Part shown: piece after piece, positions 11,516 through 64,000 of the stretch
How the letters are laid out: each line of letters opens with the position of its first letter
Numbering within the stretch: the stretch's first letter is position 1
Origin: an uncultured Pseudomonadota bacterium
GTDB taxonomy: Bacteria; Pseudomonadota; Gammaproteobacteria; Steroidobacterales; Steroidobacteraceae
Length of the DNA stretch: 64,000 nt
Direction of reading: 5' to 3'
Assembly (NCBI GenBank): GCA_937920275.1
Contig: CALGVD010000123.1
Location: 1 to 64,000, forward strand
Made by a program: the position numbers and the translations under genes
Notes under the pieces: generated by a model
Told to the model about the DNA's origin: nothing
The model's database searches: none
What the model saw: the letters and a program-made list of their open reading frames with translations, nothing else

Positions 11516-12043
11516 TCAGAGTATACGGTCCGGCAAGGCTGCGACGATGCGCTCGACGATGTCCTGCACGCGACTGCCGTCGGTCCGGACCGTGAGATGC
11601 GCGACCTCGGCATAGAGCGGTGCACGGTGCGCCATCAGCTCGGCCAAGCGGGCCGTCAGATCGGTGGCGCCCGCCAACAACGGCCGGTGGGCGCTGCGTC
11701 GCACACGCTCGGCCTGCCGGGCGACCGAGGTCTCGAGATAGACCACCGTTCCGCTCGACTGCATCGCCGCACGGTTCTCGGGCAGCAGGATCGCGCCACC
11801 GCCGGTCGAGACCACGAGACCCGGCTGCGAGACCAGATCGAGGATGACAGCCGACTCACGGACGCGGAACCCTGCCTCGCCTTCTTTGTCGAATATGAGG
11901 GTGATGTCAGCCCCGGTGCGACGCTCGATCTCGAGGTCCGAGTCCACGAACGGTAATCGCAGCCGACGGGCGAGCCGTTTGCCCACAGCGGTCTTGCCCG
12001 AACCCATCGGGCCTACCAAGAAGATGTTCCGCAGATCCTCCAT
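11516..12043 (-). CDS. aroK: Shikimate kinase
   Basis: Phosphorylates shikimate with ATP in aromatic amino acid synthesis. A 175-residue protein from ATG 12043, with Walker A GPMGSGKT (11-18), the shikimate-binding DSD (34-36), GEAGFR (55-60), GGG (81-83) and the lid Arg in RRSAHRPLL. An open frame continues far upstream, antisense to the PBP gene, but homology begins at MEDLRNIFLVG. First gene of the aroK-aroB-dgt operon, divergent from the PBP1A gene across a 90-bp intergenic region. Confidence 0.96.
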   Translation of the reverse strand: MEDLRNIFLVGPMGSGKTAVGKRLARRLRLPFVDSDLEIERRTGADITLIFDKEGEAGFRVRESAVILDLVSQPGLVVSTGGGAILLPENRAAMQSSGTVVYLETSVARQAERVRRSAHRPLLAGATDLTARLAELMAHRAPLYAEVAHLTVRTDGSRVQDIVERIVAALPDRIL

Positions 12044-12133
12044 ACCCGCAGGATATCCCAGCCGGGGGCGCCGCCGCCCGCGAGGCGGCCGCGTCATCAG
12101 CGGACCCCTGCAATCCGGTAATATCGGCGTGCC

Positions 12134-14605
12134 GTGAAATTCTCCTTCCAGAAACTGGCCCTTTGGGCCGGCGCGGCGCTCGCCGGGCTGGCACTCGTCG
12201 TCGCCACCCTGATCTCGGGCGCCTATGTGTTCGTGCAGCCCTCGCTGCCGAGCGTCGAGGCGATGCGTCAGATCGAGCTGCAGGTACCGCTGCGGGTCTA
12301 CTCGCGCGACGGCAAGCTGATCGCGCAGATCGGCGAACAGCGGCGCATCCCGGTGACCTACGACGAGGTCCCGGAGATGGTCCGGCAGGCCTTCATCGCC
12401 GCCGAGGACGACCAGTTCTTCCAACATTCGGGGTTCGATTACCCCGGCATCGCACGCTCGCTGCTGGTGAATGTCGTGCCGGGCCGACGGCTGCAGGGCG
12501 CGAGCACGATCACCCAACAGACGGCCCGCAACCTGTTCTTGACGCAGGATCGCACCTGGCGGCGCAAGGTACAGGAGATGTTCCTGACCTACCGCATCGA
12601 GCGTGAGTTCTCGAAGCAGGAGATCCTCGGGCTCTATCTCAATGTCATCAGCTTCGGCAAACGCACCTATGGCGTGGCTGCGGCGGCGGACTACTACTTC
12701 GGTAAGAACCTCGACGAACTCAGCTTGGCCGAAGCCGCGACGCTGGCCCGAGTGCCGCAGGCACCGTCGCGCTACAACCCGATCAGCAACCCTGAGGCGG
12801 CGGCCGAGCGGCGCCGTTATGTGCTGCGGCGCATGCGCGAGATCGGCCTCATCGACGAAGCCGCTGAGCAGCGCGCGATCGCCGAGAAGGTGCGGGCCCG
12901 GGAGCACGCGCAGAGCTTCGATGTCGAAGCGCCCTACCTCGCCGAGATGGCGAGGCTCGAGCTCGTGAAGCGGCTCGGGGCGGCTGCGCAGAACGAGGGC
13001 TTCAAAATATACACGACCATCGACCCAAGAATGCAGTCCGCGGCCAACCGTGCGGTGCGCACGGGGCTCATCGACTACGACCGCCGCCACGGCTGGCGCG
13101 GCGGCGTCGAGCGCGTCACGCTGCAGGAGACGGACGCCGAGGACACGCTCGAGGACCTGCTGGTCGGCCGTCCGTCAAGCGACCCGTTGCTGCCTGCGGT
13201 GGTGATACAGGTCGGGCCGAAAGCGGCGCGGGTCTATGTGCGGGGCAAGGGCTACGCCGACATCGAGTGGGAGGGGCTGTCTTGGGCCCGGCCCAAGATC
13301 GGCGCCCGCACAGGCGCAGCGCCCAAGGCCGCGAGCGAGATCGTGGCGCGGGGCGATCTGGTCTATGTGACGCTCACTGCCACCAAGGCCACGGGCAAAG
13401 AGGGCGCGACGGATGCCGCGCCGCCGTCGCTCAACGCACGGCTCGCGCAGATGCCCGAGGCCGCCTCGGCGCTGGTCGCTCTGAAACCTGACGATGGCGC
13501 CATCCTCGCGCTGGTCGGTGGTTTCGATTACTTCGACGCCAAGTCCGGCAAGTTCAACCGTGCCACGCAGGCGCAGCGCCAGCCCGGGTCGGGCTTCAAA
13601 CCGTTCCTGTACTCGGCGGCGCTCGAGAACGGCTTCACAGCGGCCTCGCTGATCCTCGATGCCCCGTTCGTGATCGACGATTCGAGCATGGAAGAGGCCT
13701 GGCGGCCGGAGAACTCGAGCGGCGAATTCTACGGCCCGACGCGGCTGCGCGAGGCGCTGGTGAAATCCCGCAACCTCGTATCGATCCGGCTGCTGCAGGC
13801 GGTCGGGATGTCACCGGCCATGGCTTGGGCGGAACGGTTCGGCTTCGAGCGCGCCCGGCTGCCGCGCAACCTCACGCTCGCGCTCGGCACCAACAGCGCG
13901 ACACCGCTGCAGGTCGCCACGGCCTACGCCGTGTTCGCGAACGGCGGCTACCGCGTGCAACCTTGGTTCATCGACCGCATCGAGGACCCGAAGGGCGAGA
14001 TCGTCTTCCAGTCCGCGCCGCGCCGCGCGGGCTGCGATGCCGAGGACAACGCGGCAGGCGCGACGGGCTGCAACCTGCCCGAAGCGCTGCGCGCGCCGCG
14101 CGCCATCAGCGCGGCGAACGCGTGGCTGATGACCGACTTCATGCGCGAAGCGGTCGTGCGTGGCACCGGGGTGCGTGCTCGCGCGCTCGGCCGCAGCGAC
14201 ATCGCCGGTAAGACCGGCACCACCAACGAATCGCGCGACACCTGGTTCAACGGCTACAGCCGCAGCGTCGTCGCGACCGTGTGGGTGGGCTTCGACCAGG
14301 CCCAGCCCCTCGGCGAAGGCGAGGAAGGCAGCCGTACCGCCGTGCCGATCTGGACCGACTTCATGCGCGACGCGCTCGCCGGTGTGCCGCAGCGCGGCTG
14401 GCCGATGCCGGAAGGTCTGTTGCAGGCTCGGGTCTCGCTCGAGACCGGCGGATTGGCGAGCGTCGACGACCCGGACGGCATCTTCGAGACCTTCATGCTC
14501 GATCGCATGCCGACCGGCGGCATCCTCGGCGGCAACGAGATGGCCGGGGTCGGCACTTCGGGCGTCGGCACCGTCGACCCCACCACTGCCGAGCCGATCT
14601 TTTGA
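12134..14605 (+). CDS. mrcA: Penicillin-binding protein 1A, bifunctional transglycosylase/transpeptidase
   Basis: An 823-residue class A PBP for peptidoglycan synthesis at the cytoplasmic membrane. One N-terminal helix lies at about 10-32. The glycosyltransferase domain has EDDQFF (catalytic Glu91) and QGASTITQQ (121-129). The transpeptidase motifs are SGFK (486-489), SRN (545-547) and KTGT (693-696). Start is GTG at 12134, with TAATAT 10 nt upstream. Divergence from aroK is the usual gammaproteobacterial context of mrcA. The downstream gene overlaps its stop. Confidence 0.95.
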   Translation: MKFSFQKLALWAGAALAGLALVVATLISGAYVFVQPSLPSVEAMRQIELQVPLRVYSRDGKLIAQIGEQRRIPVTYDEVPEMVRQAFIAAEDDQFFQHSGFDYPGIARSLLVNVVPGRRLQGASTITQQTARNLFLTQDRTWRRKVQEMFLTYRIEREFSKQEILGLYLNVISFGKRTYGVAAAADYYFGKNLDELSLAEAATLARVPQAPSRYNPISNPEAAAERRRYVLRRMREIGLIDEAAEQRAIAEKVRAREHAQSFDVEAPYLAEMARLELVKRLGAAAQNEGFKIYTTIDPRMQSAANRAVRTGLIDYDRRHGWRGGVERVTLQETDAEDTLEDLLVGRPSSDPLLPAVVIQVGPKAARVYVRGKGYADIEWEGLSWARPKIGARTGAAPKAASEIVARGDLVYVTLTATKATGKEGATDAAPPSLNARLAQMPEAASALVALKPDDGAILALVGGFDYFDAKSGKFNRATQAQRQPGSGFKPFLYSAALENGFTAASLILDAPFVIDDSSMEEAWRPENSSGEFYGPTRLREALVKSRNLVSIRLLQAVGMSPAMAWAERFGFERARLPRNLTLALGTNSATPLQVATAYAVFANGGYRVQPWFIDRIEDPKGEIVFQSAPRRAGCDAEDNAAGATGCNLPEALRAPRAISAANAWLMTDFMREAVVRGTGVRARALGRSDIAGKTGTTNESRDTWFNGYSRSVVATVWVGFDQAQPLGEGEEGSRTAVPIWTDFMRDALAGVPQRGWPMPEGLLQARVSLETGGLASVDDPDGIFETFMLDRMPTGGILGGNEMAGVGTSGVGTVDPTTAEPIF

Positions 14606-54919: not shown

Positions 54920-55570
54920 TCAACGGCGCGCGAACAGGTGATCGGCGACGAACGGGTTATGGCGGCGTTCCTCGCCGAAGGTCGACTCGGGCCCATGGCC
55001 CGGCAAGAATGTGATGTCATCGCCGAGCGGGAACAAGCGCTCACGGATCGAGGCCAATAATTGTGCGTGGTCGCCGCGCGGAAAATCCGTACGGCCGATC
55101 GAGCCGGCGAAGATCACATCGCCGACGATCGCGTAGTGCGCCTCGCGCTGGAAGAACACTACATGACCGGGCGTATGACCCGGACAATGCAGGACCTCGA
55201 ACTCGAGTGCACCCACCGTCACCCGATCGCCGTGCTGCAGCCAACGATCCGGGACGAACGCCTCGCTCGGCGGAAAGCCGAACATCCGGGCTTGGGCCGG
55301 CATCTGCTCGATCCAGAACTGATCGCCCTGCTGCGGACCCTCGATGGGCACCGCGCTGCGACGGGCGAGCTCGGCGGTGCCGCCTGCGTGATCGAGGTGC
55401 GCATGGGTGATGAGGATCTTCTCGAGCGTCAGCCCATGCTTCGCCACCACCGCGAGCAGACGGTCGATCTCGCCTCCCGGATCGACCACCGCCGCCCGGC
55501 GGGTGGCCTCACACCACAGCACCGAGCAGTTCTGCTGGAACGGCGTGACCGGGACGACTTCGAGACGCAT
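54920..55570 (-). CDS. MBL-fold hydrolase, glyoxalase II-like (YcbL type)
   Basis: 216 residues. Metallo-beta-lactamase motif THAHLDHAGG (His56, His58, Asp60, His61), then HCPGHTPGHVVF, VGDVIFAGSIGRTDFP and LPGHGP. Short glyoxalase II-like proteins lacking the C-terminal helical domain hydrolyse thioesters such as S-lactoylglutathione. It lies 27 bp downstream of the malonyl-CoA reductase gene, same strand. Confidence 0.9.
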   Translation of the reverse strand: MRLEVVPVTPFQQNCSVLWCEATRRAAVVDPGGEIDRLLAVVAKHGLTLEKILITHAHLDHAGGTAELARRSAVPIEGPQQGDQFWIEQMPAQARMFGFPPSEAFVPDRWLQHGDRVTVGALEFEVLHCPGHTPGHVVFFQREAHYAIVGDVIFAGSIGRTDFPRGDHAQLLASIRERLFPLGDDITFLPGHGPESTFGEERRHNPFVADHLFARR

Positions 55571-55597: not shown

Positions 55598-58500
55598 TCA
55601 GACCGTGATCGCGAGGCCGCGGTAGATCCGTGCGCGGTAGCGGCTCTCCTGAGCCTCGACGATCGGCGCCGCAGCCAGCAGCACCGCATGCGCGAAGCGT
55701 TGGTACTCCTCGACCTGCTCGGCGGCATCGCGCGGTTCCTCGCTGCGCATACGCCGCGTCAGGTTGACCTGGTTCACAGGGACCCCGGTCGGCAGCCGCT
55801 CGTTCTCGACACCGAGGGTCGCGGTGAAGGCGTGCAGCGTGGTCTTGACGAAGTTCGCCATGGCGAACTGCGGCAGCGTGCCGCCCACCGGCACATCGGG
55901 CGACACCAGGATCAGTCGTGCACCCTTGAACAGGGAGACCTTGCGCGCGACGCGGAAGTGGTGCGTCAAGTTGGTCTCGACCAGTTCGGCAAATCCGGTC
56001 GCATCGAGGTGGTCCTTGCCGGCGACGCCGAACAAGGCCTGTGGGATCGGCGCAAGCGGCGTCGAGATGACTGCGGCGGGCGCACCGCCCTCGGCGTAGG
56101 CCGCGTCCATGCTGGCCTCCAGGCCATCATCCCCCACGGTCCGGTAGGACACGCGATCGTGGCCCAGCGCGCGGCCGAGCAGGGTGCGGATCTTTTCACC
56201 GGCCTCCGCGGTGCGGGTGAGCGTGACGATGCTGCCCACATGGGCCTCCGCAAGGAACAGCCGCGCGACGGCGACGAGCGGCTCGACCATATGCTCGCCG
56301 ATCAGCCAGACCGTCTCGCCTTCCATGCGCTGCACGCGCTCGGACTTGGCCCGACCGAAGAGCTCTCGCTCGGTGATGGTGCGCTCCTGCTGCAGGCCAC
56401 CCGAGGGCTCGAAGGTCTCGCCGGAGATCGCGCGGTCCGCCATGAAGAACACGGTGGCGAGCGCGACATCGATCTCGGTCGGCATGCGATGCAGATGCAA
56501 CATACCGAGCACACCGTCACGGATGCGACCGGCGTCCTCGTCGATGCGCAAGGGATCGACGAACGGCTCCGCAGGCTCAGGCAAGCGCATGACCCAAGCC
56601 TCAGCCCGCTCGCAGGCCTCGGGATCGAGCAGCACGCAGCCGTTTCGCAGGCGGGCGATCAAACGCATCGCCATCACCCGCGTCAACACATGCTTCAAAG
56701 ACGAGTGCGCGGCCTCCTCCAGGTGATGCACCGCACCGCGGATCTGCACGCCCGCCGCACGCAGCGGCGCCGGCACATGCGGGGCTTGCAACAGCCCGAC
56801 ATCATTGGGCTCGAGCGCGGCGAGCACGTCATCGAGAAGCCCCCCTTCGGCGAGGGTGCGCAGCACCGCGTCATGCACGAGGTTCAAGCGCTTGTTCTCG
56901 AGGATCAGCTTGGCGCGACGGCCGAAGAGCCCGGCTTTGCCGTCCTTGCCCTTCAGGCGTTGGCCCTCGACCGGACCCGGCGCGATGGCGTTGATCTGGA
57001 TCTCGGGTCCGACGAAGCGCGCGAGGTTCTCGACCAGCGCGCGTTGACCTGCTTTGGAGACCGCGTAATCCGAGCGGTTCGGGTACGGGACCGCGATGTA
57101 TTTCTCGCCGCCGAAATAGGAGCTGACATTGAGGATATAGCCGGAGCCTTGCCGCTTCATGAGCGGCACGACCTTCTCGATCAAGGAATAATTGGAGGTC
57201 AGGTTGGCGTTCAAGGTGTTCCGCCAGTCGCTAGGCTGGATGTCCACCGCCATCTGCTCGGCGCCGGCGACGCCCGCATTGTTGATGAGGTAGTCGATAC
57301 GGCCAAACGCCCGGAGCGTCTCGGAGACCGCCTTGCCGAGGGCGGCTTCATCGGCGACATCGATGTCGGCGAGCAGGCGCACGCGCTCCTTCGGACGGTT
57401 GTAGCCGATCTCTTCGAGCTCGTGCACGATCTCGTCGCGCAGCGACTTGAGCGGCCCTTCACGGCGTGCGGCCAGCATCACGCGCGCCCCCGACACCGCG
57501 AGCAGCCTCGCGAGCTGGCCGCCGATGCCGGCGGATCCGCCCGTCACCAACACGCACTTGCCGAGATGCAGGCCCATCAAGGATTCGATCCAGCCGAAGT
57601 CCGGCCGCGTCGAGCCGGTCGCATCGACCAGTGTGGCGGGGACATAGAGGTTGATCTGCGGCACGCGGCGCTTGGTGAAGAGCAGGCGTGCGCCCTGGTT
57701 CGCGGCGAAGGCGAGGCTGTGGTCCTCTTCGTTACCCCAGCGCACGACCTGGTTCGACCAAGTGGCGACCGGCCGCACACCGGCGCGCCACTGCACTTCG
57801 CTCTCATCGCGCCAGACGCGGATCAGCTGCTCGAGCCCGGCGCGCAGGATATCGGCGTAGACGTTACCTGCGCCATCCGAGCCGTTCGACAGGAAGATCA
57901 CCCGCAGCCAGGCATCGGGCGTTGAGCGCTCGCGCCAGAGACGGGACAGCGCACGCGCCACGGCCAGCCCGCCCGTGAGCTCGGCGCCGAGGAAGGCGTC
58001 GACATCGGCATCGCTGGCCTCGGCGAGCGGCGCATGGAAGCGCCAGGTCCCGAAGGCGGGCAACACGATCGCGCCGTGCAGCGGCTGATCTTGGGTGATG
58101 GTCTGCAGCGCGTTGACGAGCGTCTCCGGACGACGACGGTCGAAGAGTTCGGGCCGGATGCGTGCATCGGCCTCGCTGTCACGCAATCCCGCACGCGCCG
58201 CCTCGACGGCCTCCTCGGACCCGAGACCGAGGATGACCTGCGCGCCGCAGCCCGCTTGCGCACGCGCGATGGCGAGCGCATCAGCGACCTGGTCGCCCGC
58301 GGCGACCAGCACCGTTGAACCGGTGCCGTCGACGGTGCGCAGCTCCGGACGCGACGCCCAGGTGGAACGCGACTCATGCGGCACCTGCATGCCGTTGGTG
58401 ACCTCGAAGCCCTGCGCGCTGAAGGCGCGCGACTCGTCGCTGCCGAGGAACACGATGGAGTTGGCGACATCGTCGATGGTCGGGAAGGTGTAGTCCTCGC

Positions 58501-59356
58501 CCGAGGTCTCATCACGCCGCGACAGCGCCATCACCGAGAGGAAGTCGTTGGTGGTGGTGCCCTGCGGCGTGTTGCGCACCTTGTCCATGGCGCTGAACAC
58601 ATTACGGATGCGCGGGCCTTCGATGGGGCCCGGATACACCGTGTTGACGCGGATGCCCTTGGCGCCGAGCTGCAGCGCGAGCTGCTTGGAGAGCGCGCTG
58701 AGCGCAGCCTTGGGCATCACATAGGCCGACCGGCCGTAGTACTTGGTCCGCGAGAAGATGGTCGAGACGTTGATGATGCTCGAGCCGCGACCGAGGTGCG
58801 GCGCGACGGCACGCACCATGTTCCAGGCGAGACCGAGCAGGTTGCCGGCGGCATCGCGCACCGTCTCGGTGTCGGTGGACCCAGCGGCGCGCTGCGCCTC
58901 GAGTTCCTCGCGCGTCAGCGGCTGCTCGAAGATCGGCTGCTTGGGACCCGCGGATCCGGCGTTGTTGACGAGGATATCGATGCGGCCGTACTCGCGCATG
59001 ACCGCTTCGACGCCGAAACGCGCCTGCCCCGGATCGGCGGCGTCGAACGCAAGCGTCATCACATCCGCAGCGGGCGCAGCCGTCGCCGCCAGCAAGGACA
59101 CGCGCAGGGCGTCGAGTTTCTCGCGGTTGCGGCCGGTGAGCACGACCTTGGCACCCTCCTCGAGATAGCGGCGCGCGATCACCTGACCGATGCCGCCTGC
59201 AGCACCGGTGACGATCGCGACCTTGCCGATGAGACGGCCGGGGCGCAGGACCGCCGTGACGGTTCGGGCAGCGGTCTTCTTTGCGACCGGTTTCTTTGTG
59301 GCAGTCTTCTTGGCGGCGGTCTTTTTGGCGGCAGGACTCACGGGCGGGCTCCCCAT
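55598..59356 (-). CDS. mcr: Bifunctional malonyl-CoA reductase, two-domain SDR
   Basis: 1252 residues; the Chloroflexus enzyme is about 1220. Two tandem short-chain-dehydrogenase halves. Half 1: TGAAGGIG (50-57), NNAG (131-134), Tyr212-x3-Lys216 within VSTIFSRTKYYGRSAYVMPK. Half 2: TGGSAGIG (605-612), NNAG (692-695), Tyr764-x3-Lys768 within SYFGGEKYIAVPYPNRSDYA. Remembered Chloroflexus blocks match closely (GLHLGK-VLVTGGSAGIGG; RDG-LGMLHLHRMPTEIDVA; NQVNLTRRMRSEEPRD). The C-terminal half reduces malonyl-CoA to malonate semialdehyde and the N-terminal half reduces that to 3-hydroxypropionate, using NADPH. Residues 9-33 are a Lys/Ala-rich tail. ATG 59356 gives the full frame; GTG 59341, with GGGGAG 7 nt upstream and a GTGA overlap with pcs, may be the real start. 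Confidence 0.96.
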   Translation of the reverse strand: MGSPPVSPAAKKTAAKKTATKKPVAKKTAARTVTAVLRPGRLIGKVAIVTGAAGGIGQVIARRYLEEGAKVVLTGRNREKLDALRVSLLAATAAPAADVMTLAFDAADPGQARFGVEAVMREYGRIDILVNNAGSAGPKQPIFEQPLTREELEAQRAAGSTDTETVRDAAGNLLGLAWNMVRAVAPHLGRGSSIINVSTIFSRTKYYGRSAYVMPKAALSALSKQLALQLGAKGIRVNTVYPGPIEGPRIRNVFSAMDKVRNTPQGTTTNDFLSVMALSRRDETSGEDYTFPTIDDVANSIVFLGSDESRAFSAQGFEVTNGMQVPHESRSTWASRPELRTVDGTGSTVLVAAGDQVADALAIARAQAGCGAQVILGLGSEEAVEAARAGLRDSEADARIRPELFDRRRPETLVNALQTITQDQPLHGAIVLPAFGTWRFHAPLAEASDADVDAFLGAELTGGLAVARALSRLWRERSTPDAWLRVIFLSNGSDGAGNVYADILRAGLEQLIRVWRDESEVQWRAGVRPVATWSNQVVRWGNEEDHSLAFAANQGARLLFTKRRVPQINLYVPATLVDATGSTRPDFGWIESLMGLHLGKCVLVTGGSAGIGGQLARLLAVSGARVMLAARREGPLKSLRDEIVHELEEIGYNRPKERVRLLADIDVADEAALGKAVSETLRAFGRIDYLINNAGVAGAEQMAVDIQPSDWRNTLNANLTSNYSLIEKVVPLMKRQGSGYILNVSSYFGGEKYIAVPYPNRSDYAVSKAGQRALVENLARFVGPEIQINAIAPGPVEGQRLKGKDGKAGLFGRRAKLILENKRLNLVHDAVLRTLAEGGLLDDVLAALEPNDVGLLQAPHVPAPLRAAGVQIRGAVHHLEEAAHSSLKHVLTRVMAMRLIARLRNGCVLLDPEACERAEAWVMRLPEPAEPFVDPLRIDEDAGRIRDGVLGMLHLHRMPTEIDVALATVFFMADRAISGETFEPSGGLQQERTITERELFGRAKSERVQRMEGETVWLIGEHMVEPLVAVARLFLAEAHVGSIVTLTRTAEAGEKIRTLLGRALGHDRVSYRTVGDDGLEASMDAAYAEGGAPAAVISTPLAPIPQALFGVAGKDHLDATGFAELVETNLTHHFRVARKVSLFKGARLILVSPDVPVGGTLPQFAMANFVKTTLHAFTATLGVENERLPTGVPVNQVNLTRRMRSEEPRDAAEQVEEYQRFAHAVLLAAAPIVEAQESRYRARIYRGLAITV

Positions 59357-62300
59357 TCCTGGAAAAGTTCGTCACGGCTGCGCAAACCGGCGCGCGGCAA
59401 GGCATGGTTGACCACATAGTTGGCGCCCGCGTGGGTGTTGTCCCACATCGATTGATGCGCCTGCGGGAGCGCCTCCCAAGGCACCATCGTCGGCGGGCTG
59501 ACCTCGAGCTGTCCGGCGGCGATCATGTCGTTCATGCGCGCGACTTCGTAGGCGTTGCAGAGGTGGGTGCCCGCGATGGTCGCCGTCGGCATCAAGATGC
59601 GCCGTTGCCGCATCCAGACCTGCGGTGCATAGAAGGTGTAGCGTCGGCCCTGCATCGACTCGCAGTACACCACCCGTCCGGTGAACGGCTTCACCAAAGA
59701 GGTCGAGGCGGCGAGCGCATCGTGACCCGCACGCTCGACCACGAGGTCCGGATAGCCGCGCGGATTGTCGGCGGAGCGCAACCAACGACCGACCGCACTG
59801 CCCAGCGGCTTCATCGTCCGGTCCTGGAACTGCCGGACCGATTCTTTGAACCGACCGGTCTCGCGTTTCGCGTCCGGCATCGCGGGCAACGCCTCCGGCC
59901 AATCGAAGTCCGCGCCTTCCTTGCGGCGGATCTCCTCGAGCGACACCACGCCGCGCACCGCATCACCGAAGCCGAGCGACTGCACGAACTCGCGTTGCGC
60001 ATCGCTCAGGGTCGCCACGACGAGCCGACCGCCAGCGGCACGCACCGCTTCGATGGCCTCGAGACCCACGGGGTCGAGCAACGCACCGTGACCGACGCCC
60101 GTGCGGCCGTCATCACCGGGGACGACACCGTAATAGAGCAACACCGCCTCACCTGCCCGCAGGCCCGCGCGGCGCAGCATCTCTTCGGGCGACACTTCGC
60201 CCGGCTTACCGGCGAACGAGAACCAGTAGCCGCTGGTCGCGCCGTAGAACGTCAGCGTGCCGTGCTCGGCAAGCAGCTGGAACGAGCGCGGGAAGGATTC
60301 CTGTCCGGCGTGCGAGACCGCGTAGTCCGCGAGACGGCCGCCGGTCTGCGCACGCATCTCGGCGAGCAGCGGCTCACCGGCGCGTTCCCAGGCCGCGATC
60401 GCCTCGGGTGATGCCGGTACCGGCGTGAACGCTGCGGCCCAGCGCGGATCGCGCCGATCGAGCGCGCCGGTCGCGCCATGGCGCCGGATGAACGCTGCAC
60501 GCTCGGGGCTCGAGACGAGCCCGACCGCAGCGAGACCGTTGCGGGCGCCGCTCTTGAGCGCCTCGAATCCGGTGCCGGTCGCGGCGCCTTCGACGAAGAG
60601 CGTCTTGCCCGAACGGATGCGTAGCGTGGTGAACAGCGCGCGCACCACCGTACCCAAGTTGAGGACATAAGAACCGGCCGCTTCGAGCGTGAGGTCTGGC
60701 GGCAAAGGATGCAGCTGCGGCCCCTGTGCGACGAGGAACTGCTGATGGCTGCCGGTGTCGGTCTCGTAGCCCTGGATCGAGAACCCGGCGTACATCGGGT
60801 CGCGTGCAGCGAGCGGCGAGAGCAGGTCGCTCTGACCCGAGTAGACCGTGACAAGGTCGCCCACCTTGATGCGGCCCTCGCGCTTCACTTCGCTGCCGAC
60901 CGCCGCCACGAGGGCGACGCCGCCCGACCCGGTCACCTGATGGTCGAGGTCGTGGTTCTCGAACGGCGACACCGGGATACCGGTGAGCGCCCAGATATCA
61001 TTGAAGTTGACCTCGGAGGCGAGCACATAGACCAGTGCCTCGTTCGGCTCCGGATGCGGGACCGGCAACAGGATCTCGCGCTCCGAGTCCTTCGGCAGGC
61101 CGTGCGCCGGCGCGCCGGTCGCCGGGTCGCGTATGACGGCGTGACCGTACTGCCAACTGGGCAGTGGCGTGAGTCCGGGGAAGAACGCTGCGCCGACCGG
61201 CAGCAGCTCGCCCCGGCGCACCATCGCTGCGATGGCACGCTCGTCATCGATCGACGGGTCGGTCGTGCTCCGCACCGGCAAGGGTGCGCTGCGCTTGTCG
61301 AGGAAAGCCTGGATCCCAGCCTTTCCGCCTTGCGGATCGATCACCGCCTCGGCGAACAACTGCGCCTCGCGCGCCAGTCCCGCTGAGAACCCCTGCTCCC
61401 AGCCGGTGCGCACGGCATCGAGGATCCGCGCCGAGGTCGGCCCACGGCCGACGCGCTCGGCTTGCGCCAGCAACCGGACCACCTCCGGTCTCTGCAGCGT
61501 CGCCTCGAGTGCGTCGCGCCCCGGTCGCTGCCAGGCGATGTTCGCGGCCTTGCGTGCCGCGAACGCGCGCGCGACGAGGTTGCGTCCTGAAGGGGCAGCG
61601 ACGAATCCCGCCGCGAGGCGCGTGGCGAGCGACACCACATCCTCGCCCGGGTGTGCGCCCTCCGTACCGCTGCCCGCCAAGGCGTGCAGCAGACCATCGG
61701 CGCGCATCTCCTCCGCCGTGACCGTGCGCCCGCCCATGATGATCTCGAGCGCGCGGGCGAGCGGCGCGGCATGTCCGGCCTCTTCGAGCAGCCGCGGCAA
61801 TCTTTGGGTACCACCATAGCCCGGCAACAGGTTCAACCTCACCTCGGGCTGTCCGAAGCTCGCGAGCGGCTCGGCCACGCGGACGTGGCAGGCCATCGCG
61901 AACTCCATGCCACCGCCGAGCGCGACGCCGTTGATGGCGGCGATGGCGGGCTTGTCCATCGCCTCGATCTTGCGGAACGCGAGGTGCGCGTTGTTCGGCA
62001 GCGGCAACGCCTCCTCGAGCGTGTGCACATCCTCGAGCAGCTGACGGATGTCGGCGCCGGCGACGAACGCCGCTGAACCTTGACCCGTGAACACCACCGC
62101 CTTCACATCGTCGCGCCGCGAGACGTGGTCGATGACGATGTTGAGCTCGTCGAGCGCGCGCTCGTTGAGGGCGTTGACCGGCGGGTTGGTGACCGTCACC
62201 AAGGCGATGCGGTCGGGCGCACGGGCGCTGCGACGGCGGCGCGGCGGCCCGAGCGCGTGGTAATGGATGCGGAAGTAGCGGAAATCCTCGAACAGGCGCT

Positions 62301-64000
62301 GCTCGTCGGCGACGCGTTGGCGCTCCTGCCACTCATCGATGGCGCGGCGCAGTTCGCCGATCGATTCAGGGTTTCGCAGCGTCGAGGTGTCGCCCACATC
62401 CTGCCCTTCGACCAGCGCGCGCACCATGCGCCGCATGTACTTGCCGCTGCGGGTCTCCGGGAACTGCGCGACCTCGATGAAATCTTCGGGGACCGCGACC
62501 TGGCCTTTTTCCTGGCGCACGATCTCGATGAGCCGTCGTCGGTCCTCGGCGGCGAGCTTGCGGCCTGGCGCGGGACGCACGAAGGCGAGCGGCGTGAGCC
62601 CTTTCTGCGCGTGGGGCGCGCCGACCACGATCACGTTGCCGACCGGCGAATCCGGGGTGACCTGCTTGTCGCGAAGGATCGCGCCTTCGATCTCTTCGGT
62701 GCCGAGGCGGTGACCGGAGACATTGATGACATCGTCGGAGCGACCGTGCAGCGAGAAGCCGCCATCGGGATACTTCACGGCGAAGTCGCCCTGCGTGTAG
62801 GCGAGCCGGCCTTGCCAGCGTGTCCAGTAGGTCTTGCGGTAGCGCTCGAAGTCGCCGCGCCAGCTGCGCGCGATCCGACGCCCCTCGACGCGGAATCCAC
62901 CCTCATCGCCCCAGATGGTGCGGCAAAGATAGGGGAACGGCGCAGCGATCACGATCTCGCCCTTCTCGCCGACCTCGACCGGACGGGCCACGACGGAGCC
63001 CGCAGCATCAGGTTCGCCGTCGGCGACCCAGACATCGCCTGCGATCCAGGGCAGCGGGTAGGTGTGCGCGTCGGCGCGCAACGGGAAGTCGCCGTTGCCG
63101 AAGTGGTGCGTCCAGACGATGCCGCCGTGCTCGGTCGCCCAGTAGGCGTTGATGTACCAGGGGGTCACGAGCTCCATGCCGAACTGCTGCACCACCGGCG
63201 AGGTCGGCTCGGCGCAGAAGGTCGCGACGCGCAAAGAGCTGCGCGAGTAGGCGCGCACATCTTCGACGTTCTGGGGATCGGTCATCACGGTCTTGAGGAA
63301 GGTGACGCCGGCTTTGAATATATTGACCTTGTAGCGCTCGATGATGCTGGCGAAGCGCCCCGCGCCGGGGAACACCGGCGCACCCTCGGCGATGACGGTG
63401 GTCACGCGCGTGGTGAGCGCACCGCAGTACATGTAGCTCTGGCCGGTGATCCAGCCCGGGTCGGCGACGACATACATGACATCGCCCGGACGGGCGTCGA
63501 AGGCGACGCGCATGGTGTGCGCGACACCCGCAGCCCAGCCGCCGTGCACATGCACCACGCCCTTGGGCTTGCCCGTCGAACCCGAGGTGTAGATGAAGAA
63601 CAGCGGGAACTCGGCATCGAGCGGCTCCGGCGGCACCGCAGCCCACAGCGCCGCGACCAGCGAGGCGTCAGGCAGTGCGAGCAACGCGTCCTCGGAATCC
63701 ACGGCGAAACCGGCAGCCCGCGCCGCAGCGAGGATCTCGAGGGTGGCGGCATCGGTGAGTTCGTGACCCCAGCGGTCCCGCTCTGGCCGCCACAGCAGCC
63801 CGGGCAGCGCTGCGTGGCGCACCACGATGACGGTGTCGATCCGCGGTGGCACGGTCACCAGCGCCGAAGCGATGGCGGTGCGGATGCGGCTCGCCTCGGC
63901 GGAGCCGATGCCGGCCTGCGCCTCGAGCGCGCGGCCGACGCCGCGCATGACATCCGAGCGCTCGAGCGTGATCTCGTTCGCGGTGGCGGCACGGGCGCCG
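59338..64000 (-). CDS. pcs: Trifunctional propionyl-CoA synthase, N-terminus cut by window edge
   Basis: At least 1553 residues in the window; the Chloroflexus protein has about 1820, so some 250-300 N-terminal residues lie outside. Order of domains (numbered from the edge): a 3-hydroxypropionyl-CoA synthetase with P-loop YTSGSTGKPKG (137-147), CAEPTSPVVQQF, WATEHGG and the catalytic-lysine region RSGKYMRR near 520; an enoyl-CoA hydratase with GVALGGGMEFAMAC near 690 and PEVRLNLLPGYGGTQRLPRL; and a zinc-independent MDR acrylyl-CoA reductase with VEGAATGTGFEALKSG near 1135. Together they convert 3-hydroxypropionate, ATP, CoA and NADPH to propionyl-CoA. The gene precedes mcr and overlaps it by 19 nt (4 nt if mcr starts at its GTG). 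Confidence 0.95.
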   Translation of the reverse strand, partial: GARAATANEITLERSDVMRGVGRALEAQAGIGSAEASRIRTAIASALVTVPPRIDTVIVVRHAALPGLLWRPERDRWGHELTDAATLEILAAARAAGFAVDSEDALLALPDASLVAALWAAVPPEPLDAEFPLFFIYTSGSTGKPKGVVHVHGGWAAGVAHTMRVAFDARPGDVMYVVADPGWITGQSYMYCGALTTRVTTVIAEGAPVFPGAGRFASIIERYKVNIFKAGVTFLKTVMTDPQNVEDVRAYSRSSLRVATFCAEPTSPVVQQFGMELVTPWYINAYWATEHGGIVWTHHFGNGDFPLRADAHTYPLPWIAGDVWVADGEPDAAGSVVARPVEVGEKGEIVIAAPFPYLCRTIWGDEGGFRVEGRRIARSWRGDFERYRKTYWTRWQGRLAYTQGDFAVKYPDGGFSLHGRSDDVINVSGHRLGTEEIEGAILRDKQVTPDSPVGNVIVVGAPHAQKGLTPLAFVRPAPGRKLAAEDRRRLIEIVRQEKGQVAVPEDFIEVAQFPETRSGKYMRRMVRALVEGQDVGDTSTLRNPESIGELRRAIDEWQERQRVADEQRLFEDFRYFRIHYHALGPPRRRRSARAPDRIALVTVTNPPVNALNERALDELNIVIDHVSRRDDVKAVVFTGQGSAAFVAGADIRQLLEDVHTLEEALPLPNNAHLAFRKIEAMDKPAIAAINGVALGGGMEFAMACHVRVAEPLASFGQPEVRLNLLPGYGGTQRLPRLLEEAGHAAPLARALEIIMGGRTVTAEEMRADGLLHALAGSGTEGAHPGEDVVSLATRLAAGFVAAPSGRNLVARAFAARKAANIAWQRPGRDALEATLQRPEVVRLLAQAERVGRGPTSARILDAVRTGWEQGFSAGLAREAQLFAEAVIDPQGGKAGIQAFLDKRSAPLPVRSTTDPSIDDERAIAAMVRRGELLPVGAAFFPGLTPLPSWQYGHAVIRDPATGAPAHGLPKDSEREILLPVPHPEPNEALVYVLASEVNFNDIWALTGIPVSPFENHDLDHQVTGSGGVALVAAVGSEVKREGRIKVGDLVTVYSGQSDLLSPLAARDPMYAGFSIQGYETDTGSHQQFLVAQGPQLHPLPPDLTLEAAGSYVLNLGTVVRALFTTLRIRSGKTLFVEGAATGTGFEALKSGARNGLAAVGLVSSPERAAFIRRHGATGALDRRDPRWAAAFTPVPASPEAIAAWERAGEPLLAEMRAQTGGRLADYAVSHAGQESFPRSFQLLAEHGTLTFYGATSGYWFSFAGKPGEVSPEEMLRRAGLRAGEAVLLYYGVVPGDDGRTGVGHGALLDPVGLEAIEAVRAAGGRLVVATLSDAQREFVQSLGFGDAVRGVVSLEEIRRKEGADFDWPEALPAMPDAKRETGRFKESVRQFQDRTMKPLGSAVGRWLRSADNPRGYPDLVVERAGHDALAASTSLVKPFTGRVVYCESMQGRRYTFYAPQVWMRQRRILMPTATIAGTHLCNAYEVARMNDMIAAGQLEVSPPTMVPWEALPQAHQSMWDNTHAGANYVVNHALPRAGLRSRDELFQEWGARP

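Follow-up and report, generated by a model that had tools for sequence, protein, structure and literature searches.

A propionyl-CoA synthase and malonyl-CoA reductase operon in a predicted phototroph of the Steroidobacterales, a candidate route for bicarbonate co-assimilation

Lakes commonly harbour aerobic anoxygenic phototrophs, but it is not clear by what means light enables these bacteria to incorporate inorganic carbon. The locus described here, from an uncultured gammaproteobacterium, bears on this problem: why would such a bacterium carry, side by side, the genes for malonyl-CoA reductase (MCR) and propionyl-CoA synthase (PCS), and could it use them to add bicarbonate to acetyl-CoA? 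Both enzymes are already known; what is new is the freshwater lineage and the tie to light use. Alpha- and Gammaproteobacteria were already known to include carriers of MCR and PCS, and a 3-hydroxypropionate/4-hydroxybutyrate cycle was proposed for Luminiphilus of the Halieaceae (PMC9802188). Porphyrobacter and Erythrobacter NAP1, which carry key enzymes of the 3-hydroxypropionate bicycle, were described as co-assimilating CO2 via part of it, and the bicycle genes of Porphyrobacter ULC335 were raised by day (PMC10674011). An incomplete 3-hydroxypropionate gene set was reported for freshwater phototrophs (PMC11089705), mcr does not figure in the annotated data set of a survey of one boreal lake (PMC6094481), and for phototrophic Myxococcota, in which the 3-hydroxypropionate pathway was checked, the Calvin cycle is reported instead (PMC10576062). 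The genus UBA964 (Steroidobacterales), to which the host probably belongs, ranked among the main contributors when phototrophs peaked in one lake in late summer, and was a network hub there (PMC10976687). The main text of that study does not contain the string 'hydroxypropion', and our search of the open-access literature found no report of the gene pair in UBA964. The analysis adds a correction regarding the host, which is predicted to be phototrophic, an association of MCR with reaction-centre genes across the order, an encoded route to succinyl-CoA and the existence of two operon lineages; together they give a concrete, testable inorganic-carbon route for the UBA964 lineage.

The overlapping pcs and mcr genes

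The window analysed is a stretch of 64,000 nucleotides (positions 1 to 64,000 of contig CALGVD010000123.1), at the end of which pcs and mcr form an operon. As the initial annotation had it, the two genes share a strand and overlap, by 19 bases (59338-59356). The features are as follows.

54920..55570, minus strand: gene for a metallo-beta-lactamase-fold protein, 27 bases downstream of mcr
55598..59356, minus strand: mcr, bifunctional malonyl-CoA reductase with four SDR domains, 1252 aa (similarity and residues)
55598..57601, minus strand: C-terminal half of MCR, SDR3-ED-SDR4, predicted to convert malonyl-CoA to malonate semialdehyde (residues in the alignment)
57602..59356, minus strand: N-terminal half of MCR, SDR1-2, predicted to convert malonate semialdehyde to 3-hydroxypropionate (structure match and residues)
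59338..64000, minus strand: pcs, propionyl-CoA synthase, C-terminal 1553 of 1850 aa, continuing to position 64890 of the contig (match to 6eqo)
59347..61047, minus strand: zinc-type/enoyl-CoA reductase domain of PCS, putative acrylyl-CoA reductase (domain hits and alignment)
61327..62214, minus strand: enoyl-CoA hydratase-type domain of PCS, putative 3-hydroxypropionyl-CoA dehydratase (domain hits and residues)
62335..63705, minus strand: acyl-CoA ligase domain of PCS, in-window part (domain hits)

The description of both genes as full-domain and intact in the window holds for mcr, whose open reading frame is complete, but not for pcs, whose frame is still open at the window edge. Read past this edge, the pcs frame begins at position 64890 of the 66825-base contig, so that approximately 297 N-terminal residues of PCS fall outside the window.

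The MCR protein aligns over its residues 41-1252, i.e. at full length and with all four SDR domains, with the solved MCR 8hi4 (1178 bits; 8hjw, 1116 bits), whereas no SDR other than the MCR entries exceeds 90 bits. Entries 8HI4-8HI6 represent the Roseiflexus enzyme and 6K8T-6K8W that of Porphyrobacter, and the same study supplied our list of catalytic and substrate residues in SDR1 and SDR3, ten of which were mutated there while Y743 and R1164 came from simulation (PMC10470521). All 12 are present in the window, and none varies among the 35 aligned rows. In the N-terminal half, Thr199, Tyr206, Arg209, Tyr212 and Lys216 correspond to T165, Y172, R175, Y178 and K182 of RfxMCR; in the C-terminal half, Ser746, Tyr758, Arg761, Tyr764, Lys768, Arg814 and Arg1187 correspond to S731, Y743, R746, Y749, K753, R799 and R1164. 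The CoA-binding residues R785 and L795 were compared by eye in the alignment and likewise agree. The protein thus belongs, by similarity and residues, to the characterised bifunctional MCR family, as initially annotated, and is predicted to be active.

The assignment of PCS is also borne out. Its in-window part matches 6eqo, which we take to be the PCS of Erythrobacter sp. NAP1, with 2092 bits over 1544 residues, and the complete frame fuses ligase, dehydratase and reductase within about 1850 aa, the arrangement by which we recognised PCS. Five of five motif positions, presumably the ligase lysine, the hydratase glutamates and the ligase P-loop, are kept, without variation among the 24 rows; on these grounds the protein is a member of the PCS family with predicted PCS activity. 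The ligase domain of the Erythrobacter sp. NAP1 enzyme is active on 3-hydroxypropionate (PMC11599936). Only generic domains are hit by Pfam in either protein, and the top 25 NCBIfam hits for each include no model specific to MCR or PCS, so that marker-based surveys can miss the pair; PMC6094481 likewise states that no specific models for the 3-hydroxypropionate pathway were found.

The arrangement recurs well beyond the window. In 29 of 35 loci, from three phyla (Pseudomonadota, Myxococcota and Gemmatimonadota), pcs lies directly 5' of mcr; the six others comprise three loci with fewer than 140 bases upstream and three from Chlorobiota. When 44 loci were compared, the next most common gene families, found in at most 14 loci, were neighbours in close relatives, and a few other neighbour families were common to two or three loci. 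The metallo-beta-lactamase-fold family is present in 14 of the 44, all close relatives, and the gene downstream of mcr is probably a passenger; as it stands beside mcr in close relatives alone, it was ruled out as a part of the pathway. On the upstream side of pcs, an SPFH/Band 7 gene lies in divergent orientation at a distance of 197 bases, and oxidase-assembly genes were read by eye close to the operon.

A phototrophic host and its route to succinyl-CoA

According to the initial annotation, the genes flanking the operon give no sign of phototrophy. The listed flanking genes indeed include no photosynthesis genes, but the host has a photosynthesis gene cluster elsewhere: the suggested search of the full genome found pufL and pufM (PF00124) on contig C91, which further holds pufC, puhA, puhB, bchC, bchF, bchG, bchP, bchZ and ppsR. 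Judging from this gene content, the host is a bacteriochlorophyll-bearing phototroph with type II reaction centre genes. BchB, the light-independent protochlorophyllide reductase, was not found over the family cut-off in the whole genomes of the host or of G273, a second member of its genus (L133, L131), where only weak hits were obtained; that in the host falls at the position of bchZ. The genus may rely on a light-dependent protochlorophyllide reductase, or a BchB gene may have been missed, and since two of its genomes lack BchB over the cut-off, this protein is a poor test on its own in this lineage.

The propionyl-CoA carboxylase and mutase suggested as a continuation through methylmalonyl-CoA were also recovered. 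The acetyl-CoA carboxylase carboxyltransferase subunits, accA and accD, are encoded in the genome, and a cluster on contig C125 holds an epimerase-like Glyoxalase_4 protein together with pccA, pccB, meaB and mcm types. Of these, mcm and meaB exceed their NCBIfam cut-offs, while the pccB-type protein stays under the cut-off of its nearest model, mmdA (methylmalonyl-CoA decarboxylase alpha). The pccA type scores above accC cut-offs and owes its name here to a PCC_BT domain, and the epimerase was assigned from its Glyoxalase_4 match within the cluster. With accA/accD, MCR, PCS and this cluster encoded, the half of the bicycle from acetyl-CoA to succinyl-CoA is present as far as tested, acetyl-CoA carboxylase (ACC) being judged on its carboxyltransferase subunits accA and accD.

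On this basis, ACC would convert acetyl-CoA to malonyl-CoA, MCR would reduce malonyl-CoA with two NADPH to 3-hydroxypropionate, and PCS would turn the latter into propionyl-CoA at the expense of ATP and NADPH; propionyl-CoA carboxylase would then yield methylmalonyl-CoA, which epimerase and mutase would convert to succinyl-CoA. Two bicarbonates are added per acetyl-CoA in this pathway and three NADPH are used per propionyl-CoA. Light would supply ATP and spare reductant, and the route would either stretch scarce organic carbon or take up excess NADPH. We consider it likely that the pair serves a photoheterotrophic host in light-assisted bicarbonate co-assimilation and anaplerosis, running in this direction and without a closed autotrophic cycle.

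The genes could also be used catabolically, external 3-hydroxypropionate or malonate semialdehyde being taken to succinyl-CoA via PCS with bicarbonate addition to acetyl-CoA of minor importance. Uptake of 3-hydroxypropionate needs PCS alone, by our reasoning, and assimilation of organic substrates was proposed for incomplete gene sets in Actinobacteriota (PMC9802188). Such uptake alone, however, would not need mcr, which is kept beside pcs in 29 of 35 loci, and both MCR halves retain catalytic residues that would be superfluous for it; we regard this use as unlikely. Somewhat less probable still is a role as reductant sink or precursor supply, in which propionyl-CoA would feed odd-chain lipids, storage polymers or methylmalonyl-CoA units while NADPH is taken up. 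The NADPH demand given above fits such a sink, and another mutase frame in the genome (C18:68916-70619; about 1187 aa) is compatible with precursor supply, but the carboxylase-mutase cluster on C125 takes propionyl-CoA onwards to succinyl-CoA. The second frame adjoins an enoyl-CoA hydratase-type gene and, by its layout, is perhaps a fused isobutyryl-CoA mutase (IcmF).

Light-assisted co-assimilation as preferred here stops short of autotrophy, and the search for malyl-CoA/citramalyl-CoA lyase, another check that had been suggested, turned out negative. A single HpcH/HpaI protein over the family cut-off is encoded in the host genome. It is CitE/RipC-like, reaches neither the RipC nor the CitE cut-off of NCBIfam, and has 3qll as its closest solved structure (134 bits), as against just 52 bits for 4l80, which we take to be the Chloroflexus malyl-CoA lyase. 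No Chloroflexus-type malyl-CoA/citramalyl-CoA lyase was thus found in the genome by the HpcH/HpaI family search. Although gene sets above the completeness threshold of PMC9802188 occur in some phototrophic Burkholderiales MAGs according to that study, the lyase result makes a complete autotrophic 3-hydroxypropionate bicycle very improbable in this host. RuBisCO was not found either in a search of the genome. An isocitrate lyase-like protein is encoded, which means that the pcs-mcr pair is not the sole anaplerotic option; a role as sole anaplerotic route was ruled out accordingly.

Co-occurrence of MCR with reaction-centre genes

The tie between MCR and phototrophy was assessed in 296 genomes of the order, with MCR searched at E 1e-80 (an initial pass scoring two candidates per genome) and reaction centres scored by PF00124. 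MCR was present in 18 genomes and PF00124 in 39, and all 18 were among the 39: reaction-centre genes accompany MCR in 18 of 18 genomes, as against 21 of the 278 without it. At least 90% completeness is reached by 205 of the 296 genomes, 18 of them with MCR and 36 with a reaction centre. Because the genomes are related, a p value at genome level would overstate the association; counted by genus, a reaction centre is found in 6/6 genera with MCR and in 9/62 without (Fisher p 4.6e-5). In the window's genus, 8/9 genomes encode MCR and 9/9 a reaction centre, whereas across the order MCR went undetected in 21 of the 39 phototrophs, including G273. RuBisCO is encoded by 0/18 phototrophs with MCR and by 5/21 without (p 0.05, among related genomes), which is only suggestive of the two being alternatives in the phototrophs of the order.

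Two of the 18 MCR genomes are partial. In G150 (contig C24; L125:1-15000), the contig end truncates mcr to its C-terminal half, and bchP, puhA and pufLM are found at distances of about 5.7, 9 and 19 kb from it, respectively, with a UbiA-family gene near; mcr is thus physically linked to the edge of the photosynthesis cluster in this one relative, which belongs to another family than the host and whose MCR falls in another clade. The other, G115, has a stand-alone N-terminal half of 558 aa (L127:10533-12209), and neither the C-terminal half nor PCS was detected in the 20 kb read around it.

A second set, of 35 MCR loci from 34 genomes, was obtained by a scan with short exact peptide patterns, which favours near relatives. 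Type II reaction-centre genes are present in 27 of these genomes. Nine, as recognised by their gene places, were already in the order sample; 18 of the 25 additional ones have a reaction centre. Among the seven without PF00124, G313 (Thermochlorobacter) and G322 (Myxococcales) have BchB over the cut-off and the Chlorobiota genomes G314 and G323 only weak BchB matches, while G326, G327 and G329 (3/34) match neither. A plasmid-borne relative was also sought, but the plasmid collection gave no match at E 1e-60.

Two operon lineages and upstream signals

Trees of the kind first suggested, against known homologs, place both window proteins inside the MCR and PCS families, so that the phylogeny named in advance as refuting the initial annotation is not seen; Congregibacter, one of the proposed comparisons, is absent from the trees. 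In the tree of the MCR C-terminal half (34 rows), the clade of the window, which covers families f1 and f2, joins Porphyrobacter (100/99), itself a long branch, and lies far from Halieaceae; the f7 (Woeseiaceae) and f15 rows of the order, by contrast, fall with Halieaceae and Myxococcota. A single clade for the 19 rows that an order code, a record title or close similarity assigned to the Steroidobacterales was rejected (p-AU 2.7e-69), as was a PCS clade of the 18 window-type rows plus the Woeseiaceae row (p-AU 6e-32). Two operon lineages within the order are thus firm under these models. In the PCS tree, 6eqo is a long branch between the two clades, and whether it is kin to the window protein there hinges on midpoint rooting, although sequence identity puts it nearer to the window side; with such references, the donor and the date of transfer stay unsettled.

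Known systems compare as follows. The Porphyrobacter dokdonensis MCR (6k8s/6k8v) and the PCS of Erythrobacter sp. NAP1 (6eqo) each have the domain order and length of their window counterpart; the MCR is 54.0% identical in the C-terminal half and the PCS 65.0% identical in the reductase part, compared with 56.7-59.7% for the other operon clade; these hosts are alphaproteobacterial, whereas that of the window is gammaproteobacterial. Chloroflexus and Roseiflexus MCR (8hi4, 8hi5) share the catalytic residues and 52.6-53.5% identity in the C-terminal half, but the Chloroflexus bicycle has the malyl-CoA lyase type not found in the window's host, where a closed cycle is unsupported. Halieaceae, Woeseiaceae, Myxococcota and Longimicrobiales (MAGs and isolates) have pcs-mcr in the same gene order, and most of these genomes have reaction-centre genes; both of their proteins form a deep clade separate from that of the window.

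The closest credibly named relative is UBA964 (L012), with 94% identity in MCR and 99.5% in the reductase part of PCS. As it is nested in the clade of the window's genus, the host genus is probably the freshwater UBA964 of GTDB, order Steroidobacterales. A closer MCR record, L011 (97%), has an implausible Klebsiella title. This record and L020 (CAMAQZ010000010.1 and CAMCBU010000008.1), both titled Klebsiella pneumoniae, match genomes G146 and G073 of the window's genus in the places of their reaction-centre genes, and their labels look wrong.

Two distant lineages in one order make transfer likely, which would fit a silent, unused passenger. Yet dN/dS values of 0.05-0.23 (11 gene comparisons with six relatives) place both genes under purifying selection, and full-length frames are open in most loci long enough to show them; we find an idle passenger scarcely credible. 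Bicarbonate co-assimilation remains the preferred reading, and the pair may, more tentatively and with our judgement leaning slightly against it, be a transferable accessory of phototrophy that entered the Steroidobacterales at least twice, spread over several phyla, is kept almost only in genomes with a reaction centre and provides a light-assisted bicarbonate route in place of RuBisCO. If so, UBA964-type lake bacteria would be an overlooked contributor to bicarbonate uptake. At L045:9968-13608 and L027:9956-13665, mcr is split over two overlapping frames, perhaps through sequencing frameshifts or decay.

Upstream regions were examined for the motif TGTN12ACA, presumably the PpsR site. The motif is not present upstream of pcs in the window and occurs in 1 of 25 upstream regions (one just 23 bases long), against 1.09 expected; on the photosynthesis contig C91, which carries ppsR, it was counted 8 times against 2.5 expected (L122, L123), and on the control contig C123 5 times against 5.0. 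Shared light regulation via a PpsR-type site is thus not supported, and this result, together with the isocitrate lyase-like protein, argues against a strictly light-controlled or essential role. A simple scan near the pcs start gave no sigma-70-type promoter or terminator, and Rfam gave no riboswitch at the operon. In L025, a relative with the operon in a different gene neighbourhood, a palindromic TGTN12ACA precedes the first aligned codon of pcs by 75 bases. The one Rfam match in the scanned stretches is a TPP riboswitch (RF00059) on C91, at L123:11536-11638, which scores just above the gathering score and sits where a large ORF on the plus strand (11626-13683) begins.
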